Positions 1,123 through 61,400 of a stretch of 64,000 bases of DNA are shown piece after piece. The stretch is taken from assembly GCA_016208495.1 (NCBI GenBank), contig JACQXX010000107.1, positions 1-64,000 of the forward strand, given 5' to 3'. The notes below the pieces were generated by a model. That model worked only from the letters and a program-made list of their open reading frames with translations. It did no database searches and was not told the origin of the DNA. The translations under genes and the position numbers were made by a program. This DNA comes from Acidobacteriota bacterium. GTDB lineage: Bacteria; Acidobacteriota; Blastocatellia; Chloracidobacteriales; Chloracidobacteriaceae. Numbering within the stretch: the first letter of the stretch is position 1; each line of letters opens with the position of its first letter.

Positions 1123-1432
1123 CTCCGTTGCGGAAAGGTCGGTTTTCGCCCGGATGGGCGCCGGACAGTAGCCGGTGGGCAGCCTGCTTTGAGGCGCACC
1201 CACCGGAATGCGGGTCAGGAATGGTTCGCGCCCGGATGGGCGCTGGATCAAAATCCGAAGGTCCCCGGAACTTTCGCCGAAACCTGACCGACGAACGCTT
1301 CCAGCGCCCATCCGGGCGCGAGCGGAATGGGCCATGATCCGGTGGTATGCCCAAAGCGGCAAACCACCGGCTACTTTCCGGCGCCCATCCGGGCGGGAGC
1401 TGTCAAGCCCAAGCGACCTTTCCGCAACGGAG
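1123..1432. mobile_element. MITE-like 310-bp palindromic element, copy 1
   Basis: This is a non-coding element bounded by perfect 19-bp terminal inverted repeats (CTCCGTTGCGGAAAGGTCG at 1123-1141 and its complement at 1414-1432). The inside is a nested palindrome. An outer stem runs from about 1145-1180 to about 1363-1396. Inside it are one hairpin built on CCGGTGGG/CCCACCGG, one on GCGCCCGGATGGGCGCTGGA and its complement, and a third around the conserved CCGGTGGTATGCCCAAAGCGG block at 1339. The element sits inside a TTCATTC heptamer array. The flanks ATTCTTCA at 1115-1122 and 1433-1440 are identical (extendable to 15 bp), although the array makes a target duplication ambiguous. Short ORFs inside it are by-products of the palindrome. 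A second copy lies at 7328-7637. Confidence 0.85.
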
Positions 1433-3717: not shown

Positions 3718-3760
3718 TTGTAGTCAGTAGTCAGTAGTCAGTAGTCAGTAGTCAGTAGTT
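3718..3760. repeat. GTAGTCA heptamer array
   Basis: About six tandem GTAGTCA units lie directly upstream of the gene remnant at 3773. They mark the point where the homologous coding sequence is lost. Confidence 0.9.
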
Positions 3761-7327: not shown

Positions 7328-7637
7328 CTCCGTTGCGGAAAGGTCGGATTTCGCCCGGAGGGCGCCGGAAAGTAGCCGGTGTGGAAGCCGGCTTTGCGGC
7401 GCACCCACCGGAATACGGACCGCCAACGGTTCGCGCCCGGATGGGCGCTGGAAGCTTTCATCAGCAAAGTTTCGGTAACCGTTCCATCGTGCCTGGGGTT
7501 TTGATCCAGCGCCCATCCGGGCGCGAGGGAAATGAGCACGAATCCCGGTGGTATGCCCAAAGCGGCAAACCACCGGCTACTATCCAGCGCCCTCCGGGCG
7601 GTGATTGTCAAACTCAAGTGACCTTTCCGCAACGGAG
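7328..7637. mobile_element. MITE-like 310-bp palindromic element, copy 2, with 11-bp target duplication
   Basis: It has the same length and layout as 1123-1432. Its 18-bp terminal inverted repeats (CTCCGTTGCGGAAAGGTC) lie at 7328-7345 and 7620-7637. It is flanked by perfect 11-bp direct repeats, AAAGAAACTCT at 7317-7327 and 7638-7648, the signature of transposition. Against copy 1 the outer stem has lost one base in the left arm (GATGGGCGC to GAGGGCGC) and the matching base in the right arm, which preserves pairing. There is no transposase inside, so it must be mobilised in trans. Confidence 0.88.
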
Positions 7638-41577: not shown

Positions 41578-41927
41578 GTGGTTAGGGAGCGTTAAAAAAC
41601 AACTTCCCGTTTTGGTTTGGGGGCAGGTATTTGGATTGAGCATCCCTGTTAGGCTGCCGTTCACATAGCCGGTGGTTGCGAGGTTTTGGGAGCTACCACC
41701 GGGAAACGATTGTCTCCCCGGTCCATCCCTCCCCGCTTCGCCCGCGCCCCGCAGGGCGCGGGCGAAGCGGGGAGGGATAGGGGATAGCCCGTGGATCCGG
41801 TGGTAGGCCCAAAGCGGCCAACCGACCGGCTATCCGAACGGCAACGCTTCGCGGTGCAAAACCAAAACCTGGATGTGACAGAACGCCTGCGCCCCCAGGG
41901 ATTTATTTTTTAACGCTCCGTAACCAC
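41578..41927. mobile_element. MITE-like palindromic element of a third type
   Basis: A 22-bp terminal inverted repeat with one mismatch bounds the element (GTGGTTA then GGAGCGTTAAAAAA at 41578-41599; complement at 41906-41927). Inside are an outer stem (GCCGTTCACATAGCCGGT against ACCGGCTATCCGAACGGC), a CCGGTGGT/ACCACCGG hairpin, and a perfect 24-bp stem with a CGCA loop around 41728-41780. It also has a block CCGGTGGTAGGCCCAAAGCGG that is almost identical to the core of the 310-bp elements. It sits between TTAGTG-type units. No ORF is present. Confidence 0.8.
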
Positions 41928-46021: not shown

Positions 46022-46138
46022 AAACCAAGGGATGAGGGATGAGGGATGAGGGATGAGGGATGAAAAAAATCCCCTGTCACCTTGTCACCCTGTCACCTTG
46101 TCATCCTGTCACCTTGTTACCTTGTCATTCAGTCATCC
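46022..46138. repeat. GGGATGA array followed by CTTGTCAC array
   Basis: About five GGGATGA units (46028-46060) run into CCTTGTCAC-type octamers (46072-46138) between the kinase and purC. The same pairing of words occurs at 22297-22365. Confidence 0.85.
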
Positions 46139-52747: not shown

Positions 52748-53021
52748 TTTAGTGGTTAGTGATTAGTGATTAGTGGTTAGAAATCAATACTTTCGAAGAA
52801 GAATCAGGCACCAGTCACCACGCACCAGGAACCAAGGGCGTCCTTTCACATGCAGGTTTTTTGATTTCATCCCGGAGGGAATGACCAGGTTCCCAGGGCT
52901 CGAAGACTCGCTCTGGGCTACGAGCCGGCGTGGGAGTTTCTGGACTGAGAACCAAAAACGGCTTCAACTCTTAGCTGGCACCACTAACCACTAACCACTA
53001 ACCACTAACCACTAACCACTT
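52748..53021. repeat. GTTAGTG inverted arms enclosing a repeat fragment
   Basis: GTTAGTG-type units at 52748-52779 and CACTAAC units at 52980-53021 enclose about 200 bp. The left core has the GAAATCAATACTTTC phrase seen at 40861 and 61337. The right end has GGCTTCAACTCTTAGCTGGCA, matching the terminus of the element at 61065-61320. Confidence 0.8.
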
Positions 53022-61009: not shown

Positions 61010-61400
61010 TGAGTGGTTAGTGGTTAGTGGTTAGTGGTTAGTGGCTAGTGGTTAGTGATTAGTGATGCAAATTAAGAGTTGAAAAAAGACTGGTTTTGAA
61101 TCCGCGAAGCGGGTGGCATTCTTCAAGCCTCGGGTGCAATGAGCGTCAGCGAATGAAATCCGTGGCCTTCATCACCGGTCAGCGTGGCCTGGGCGACGGC
61201 TGAATTCATCGCCACCGATTTTGTTTTCCACGGATTCCGCTCCGCTCCACCCGAGGCTTTCACTCTTTCGCCCAGTTCCTGGGCTGAAATCCCAAAACCG
61301 TTTCAACTCTTAACTGGCATTAGTGGTTAGTGGTTAGAAGTCAATACCTTCCAAGAATCAAGAACTAACCACTAACCACTAACCACTAACCACTAACCAC
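61010..61400. repeat. GTTAGTG arrays flanking a TIR element
   Basis: GTTAGTG-type units (61010-61062) precede an element with 20-bp imperfect inverted termini (ATGCAAATTAAGAGTTGAAA at 61065-61084; complement at 61301-61320). After it come GTTAGTG units, the core GAAGTCAATACCTTCCAAGAA and five CACTAAC units up to 61400. No gene is seen in the 440-bp gap. Confidence 0.85.

Follow-up and report, generated by a model that had tools for sequence, protein, structure and literature searches.

The window analysed here is a stretch of 64,000 nucleotides from an Acidobacteriota bacterium (contig JACQXX010000107.1). Comparison of copies places a repeated element at 41585-41920 (336 bp). The preliminary description had drawn it at 41578-41927; the element is indeed present, but the outermost bases of that interval, GTGGTTA and TAACCAC, belong to a host heptamer repeat and lie outside it. 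The element is a near-perfect nested palindrome, rich in hairpins, whose parts follow one another in the order terminal repeat, hairpin, REP, centre, inverted REP, hairpin, terminal repeat (Table 1). The inverted termini GGAGCGTTAAAAAA and TTTTTTAACGCTCC are found at its ends. The central stem is perfect, as had been noticed, but comprises 25 bp instead of 24. Structure prediction, proposed as a check, gives a fold of the stretch at -215.2 kcal/mol, compared to -136.9 +/- 6.2 kcal/mol for shuffled sequences (z = -12.7).

Table 1. Positions of the element, its parts and two related elements in the window
Feature	Position	Strand	Remark
Left target-site triplet TTA	41582..41584	.	flush with the ends
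Left terminal inverted repeat, shell B, GGGAGCGTTAAAAAA	41585..41599	+	
Left subterminal hairpin (b)	41640..41657	+	helix 2; same location as hairpin b in the IS-like unit of genome G015
Left REP-like hairpin, foot ATAG, stem CCGGTGGT/ACCACCGG	41665..41702	+	helix 3
Central 25-bp perfect stem, CGCA loop	41725..41778	.	
Right REP-like hairpin, inverted	41797..41833	-	includes the shared block 41797-41823; helix 5
Right subterminal hairpin (b')	41841..41857	-	helix 6
Right terminal inverted repeat, shell B, TTTTTTAACGCTCC plus G (most copies: C)	41906..41920	-	
Right target-site triplet TAA	41921..41923	.	matches the left TTA imperfectly
Shell-A element, 310 bp, termini CTCCGTTGCGGAAAGG	1123..1432	+	REPs 1168-1206 and 1339-1374; 8-bp direct repeat ATTCTTCA at the ends
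Second shell-A element, 310 bp	7328..7637	+	REPs 7372-7411 and 7545-7580; 11-bp direct repeat AAAGAAACTCT at the ends

The initial impression that elements with other termini follow the same internal plan is borne out: different terminal shells hold the same kind of inverted REP pair. The block said to be shared with the 310-bp elements is exact (CCGGTGGTNNGCCCAAAGCGGCNAACC at 41797, 1339 and 7545) and corresponds to the second, inverted REP hairpin of the 336-bp element. These REPs have the form [G/A]TAG-CCGGTGGT...ACCACCGG, two inverted copies standing around the 25-bp stem. The foot is GTAG in the shell-A units and mostly ATAG in the shell-B units, and only type A fully matches the form GT[A/G]G.

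In the 8.38-Mb genome, the shared block has 136 matches at no more than 3 mismatches, some of them in elements with other termini, and its reversed control has none; it is neither missing from other copies nor found alone at random sites. REP matches number 168, against 0 for the control. Relatives of the whole element (E <= 1e-57) occupy at least 42 places on the plus strand of the same genome, a lower bound obtained by scoring 40 of 240 first-look candidates. These genome counts are drawn from searches and from sampled loci. Among 60 REP loci sampled in contig order, inverted REP pairs were detected at about half, and 37 loci are enclosed by a pair of shell-A, -B or -C ends. No plasmid match was found. 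Six contigs (C7, C68, C134, C139, C152 and C70) end in or beside these palindromes, which suggests that the palindromes break the assembly and, hence, that the copy numbers are lower bounds.

In an alignment of 24 copies, every pair of the left REP is invariant and the REP block belongs to the best conserved segments. In the central stem, 15 of the 25 pairs are changed on both sides between these copies, with pairing kept and the changed pairs mostly Watson-Crick; the covariation of the whole structure exceeds that of all 500 shuffles and of all slid versions. Such covariation can arise from selection on the hairpin or from correction of the palindrome by template switching, and the data fit both. 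Internal deletions are frequent among the copies, and in three of them (L042, L055 and L106) the core is flipped relative to the shell.

Could the element be a functional RNA, as the preliminary description proposed, or has the host selected it as a regulatory site for proteins (a gyrase or IHF site, a terminator or an mRNA stabiliser)? The strong predicted structure points that way, as does the fact that the joined-flank sites of shell-B copies lie inside long open frames in 11% of cases only, versus 76% at random nearby points; this low share is also as expected for repeats tolerated between genes. However, no Rfam family reaches its gathering score for the element, the sub-threshold matches being mostly microRNA models that fit any long perfect stem. 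The element is palindromic on both strands, its copies show target duplications (see below), frequent internal deletions and core inversions, as in a mobile repeat, and the whole element is nearly absent from 20 relatives (one 35-bp match). A functional RNA is thus not supported. We therefore consider host selection a very improbable explanation, secondary host roles being possible.

The outer layer is best described from the bases that flank it. Shell B has an exact 3-bp direct repeat at its ends in 34 of 46 complete copies, nearly always TTA or TAA; mismatched left/right flank pairs show one in 47% of cases. Since TWA is found at nearly every site, the excess is modest. The window copy, flanked by TTA and TAA, has an imperfect duplication. 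Exact 8-11-bp repeats flank 8 of the 22 complete copies of shell A (CTCCGTTGCGGAAAGG; control 0.000), and an exact 3-bp repeat, TTA or TAA, flanks 7 of the 11 copies of shell C (GTACAAGTCCCC; control 39%). Further ends, CTTTCACGTGTAGGTTTTT, define a shell D, for which duplications are not clear. Four loci (L321, L329, L296 and L331) hinted at a fifth shell (E): a further REP-bearing repeat (TAGCCGGTGGTCAGCGTCGCTTTGGACGCGCCACCACCGG) there has ends like AATTAAGGGTTGAAGTGG, but the pattern test gave only one clear case.

The ends of shell B surround a REP pair, parts of a REP pair (143, 172 and 204 bp), or none (118-119 bp and ~213 bp). The ~213-bp form, found at L105, L106, L121, L127 and L129, is a MITE whose unrelated interior carries CACGAAAAACACGAAAAA repeats. 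Arrays of 7- or 8-bp units are found no more than 30 bp away from 18 of the 46 shell-B copies.

Like a DDE MITE, the element carries no transposase gene, is shorter than 500 bp and has terminal inverted repeats; a flush target duplication of fixed length is found for shell B, imperfect in the window copy. The single ISAzo13-family gene of the genome (L163) has the ends GGGAGTCGGAAGAAAATA and a TTA/TTA duplication. Shell B shares with this copy, and with ISAzo13-type MITEs, GGGA... terminal repeats and a TWA duplication, and on this resemblance it may be assigned to the ISAzo13 family; its terminal sequence is similar to that of L163 but not identical. Among the PF01609 genes (two) and the PF07592 gene (one), no DDE transposase gene has exact shell-A, -B or -C ends, and no parent element was found for the shell-B ends. 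Of the two PF01609 genes considered as parents, one has the ends TAGGGTAAACGCATCTTAA and the other lies at a contig end; both are without shell ends. A pattern search for shell-A ends revealed no obvious longer element, many ends being unpaired.

The inner layer points to a different enzyme. The genome contains nine Y1_Tnp matches. Inverted type-A REPs stand on either side of three Y1 genes (L096, L098 and L099). L097 is flanked by type-B REPs, the exact ones lying on the same strand and not inverted, and L095, near a contig end, has one type-A REP. Both L095 (type A) and L097 (type B) retain intact HUH and Y motifs. The remaining type-A genes are damaged: a Y replaces the first His of HUH in L096, L098 is truncated and L099 has an internal stop. 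Six of the seven Y1 proteins scanned reach the IS200 cut-off of NF033573, the seventh being a fragment, and all seven score far below the RAYT cut-off of NF047646 (80 bits). Those with a readable Y motif have Y---Q--HH, a signature present in 73 of 77 proteins when related ones are included; Y---NP was not encountered among the motifs read. The profile scores and the Y motif exclude a RAYT proper (class-2 TnpA-REP) as the cognate enzyme. Just outside the window (G000:C107:73050), a further Y1 gene, L094, is flanked on each side by another kind of REP-like hairpin, GTAGCCCCGGATGCAGCGGAGCGGAATCCGGGG, in both cases on the same strand.

Similar arrangements occur in other genomes. An inverted GTAG/ATAG hairpin pair flanks a Y1 gene in 13 of 66 testable relatives, a lower bound since the strict finder misses some true pairs, whereas each of seven control feet gave 0-1 of 66. 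These relatives come from named genomes of Acidobacteria, Verrucomicrobia, Planctomycetes, Bacteroidetes and others. Three further Y---Q--HH genes (L254, L257 and L258), in genomes belonging to the host's own class, have inverted GTAG/ATAG pairs, and control feet gave none. In one of the same class (G015), a ~690-bp IS-like unit is found at several places with unrelated flanks. Its order, b-REP-d-gene-d'-REP'-b', is that of the window elements with a gene in place of the centre, and it ends at the b hairpins, without an outer shell of this kind.

Taken most simply, the element is probably a two-layer, gene-less composite mobile element, in which a derivative of a REP-bounded Y1 unit sits within the ends of a DDE-type MITE. 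The inner layer, which runs from hairpin and REP through the centre to the inverted REP and its hairpin, would derive from an IS-like transposon by loss of the gene; the Y1 (HUH) transposase of that transposon would recognise hairpins with a [G/A]TAG foot at its two ends. The repeats that form the outer layer would be those at the termini of a DDE-type MITE (shell B, ISAzo13-like), which makes a 3-bp TWA target duplication. The ~336-bp unit would spread by means of a DDE transposase acting on the outer repeats, while the REP core may be mobilised, or at least shaped, by a Y1 transposase; the two layers were presumably joined by insertion or recombination, in either order. Nesting of a REP pair in unrelated transposon ends would thus explain why elements with different ends share their interior. 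Since the same kind of REP brackets Y1 genes here, the ligand to be expected for the block, judging from sequence, is an IS200-like Y1 transposase. The protein-binding core put forward in the preliminary description thereby becomes plausible, the block being an inverted REP of this kind, with binding itself a prediction. What is conserved in the block would be a single-stranded hairpin for transposase binding rather than an RNA.

One may ask whether a single enzyme would suffice. A Y1 transposase could move the whole element, which would then be an IS200/IS605-type MITE or an oversized REPIN with the outer repeats as its outermost stem; the inverted REPs and subterminal hairpins are arranged as in gene-bearing units, and Y1 genes with intact motifs exist in the genome. 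Nevertheless, HUH transposition, as established for IS608 and ISDra2, leaves no target duplication, whereas flush duplications, differing in length, occur at shells A, B and C. The IS200/IS605 features are indeed divided: a TnpA-Y1 with HUH and Y---Q is encoded by the partner genes and not by the element, and the lack of a target-site duplication is contradicted by the TWA or 8-11-bp duplications at the shells. Moreover, shell-B ends also enclose interiors devoid of REPs, and the G015 unit stops at its b hairpins with no such shell. Mobility of the whole element through Y1 is, in our opinion, improbable, and the target duplications argue that it is the outer ends that move the ~336-bp unit.

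Conversely, the element might be an ordinary DDE MITE, the REP-like hairpins being passengers with no link to a transposase. The terminal repeats and TWA duplications are what such a MITE would display, and the existence of REP-less shell-B copies means that the core is dispensable. Against this stand the conservation of the core, which ranks among the most constant parts of the copies, its presence in several unrelated shells and around Y1 genes, and the recurrence of the gene-plus-REP arrangement in other phyla. We regard this explanation as unlikely and retain the two-layer composite.

Among known systems, the REPs, REPINs and REPtrons associated with TnpA-REP (RAYT), for example in Pseudomonas fluorescens and E. 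coli, resemble the inner layer in the GTAG-type foot of a G+C-rich hairpin, the inverted pairs, the high copy number and the Y1 gene lying between REPs (PMC3116915, PMC6006769). They differ in that their protein is a class-2 TnpA-REP with Y---NP (NF047646), whereas the protein here is IS200-like (NF033573) with Y---Q--HH, and the units here, ~310-375 bp long, sit inside shells that show target duplications. TnpA-Y1 subclass 1.2 has the same Y---Q--HH signature and IS200-like core, but was described as generally devoid of typical IS200 terminal structures, not linked to REPs and found mostly in Cyanobacteria and Bacteroidetes (Quentin et al. 2018, PMC6006769); the genes reported here are REP-flanked, multi-copy and present in several other phyla. 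On the sequence evidence, subclass-1.2-type Y1 genes flanked by REP-like hairpins would contradict the published general lack of IS200-type ends. In the open-licence papers searched, neither REPs associated with subclass 1.2 nor REP pairs within MITEs were found described. TnpA-Y1 class 3, known from Planctomycetes, Acidobacteria and Proteobacteria, with ~600 repeat copies in Solibacter, a CnGA foot and Y----Q (PMC6006769), is comparable in its behaviour as an IS/REPtron intermediate and its occurrence in Acidobacteria; however, CnGA pairs flank 0 of the 66 relatives, and class 3 was rejected. TIRYT/TIRtrons, such as those of Koribacter, are likewise acidobacterial Y1 genes with flanking inverted repeats, possibly forming a repeat family (PMC3733652), but the inner repeats here are GTAG/ATAG REPs and there are additional outer repeats with their own target duplications.

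With regard to how REPs arose from IS200-type transposons and how the two are related, class 3 was proposed earlier as an IS-REP intermediate (PMC6006769). Another candidate for such an intermediate is the GTAG-REP-bounded, multi-copy unit with an IS200-like protein of subclass 1.2, seen in Acidobacteria, Verrucomicrobia, Planctomycetes and others. By being nested in several DDE-type shells, a REP core would gain a way to spread without its own transposase, and this nesting accounts for large structured intergenic repeats that have no annotation. One can go further and propose, tentatively and with somewhat less than even confidence, that subclass-1.2 Y1 transposases and GTAG/ATAG REPs form an as yet unrecognised, phylum-crossing, IS-like REPtron family, a living intermediate between IS200 and REP/RAYT, and that in this genome at least three unrelated DDE MITE shells have repeatedly captured its REP ends, one repeat thereby being shared by two transposition systems with different enzymology.

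Other repeats were seen along the way. The window contains two sets of 300-bp direct repeats (8740-9039/12397-12696 and 9828-10127/13464-13763), 72-84% identical and spaced ~3.6 kb apart, which possibly represent a duplicated gene pair. Intergenic arrays are made of the 7-bp units AGTGGTT, GGGTTCA, GAATGAA, AGGGATG and GTAGTCA and of the 8-bp units TGACAAGG. Many lie in the window (for example at 1001-1039, 3720-3759, 46028-46063, 52980-53020 and 61012-61064), and they call to mind the heptamer repeats of cyanobacteria.
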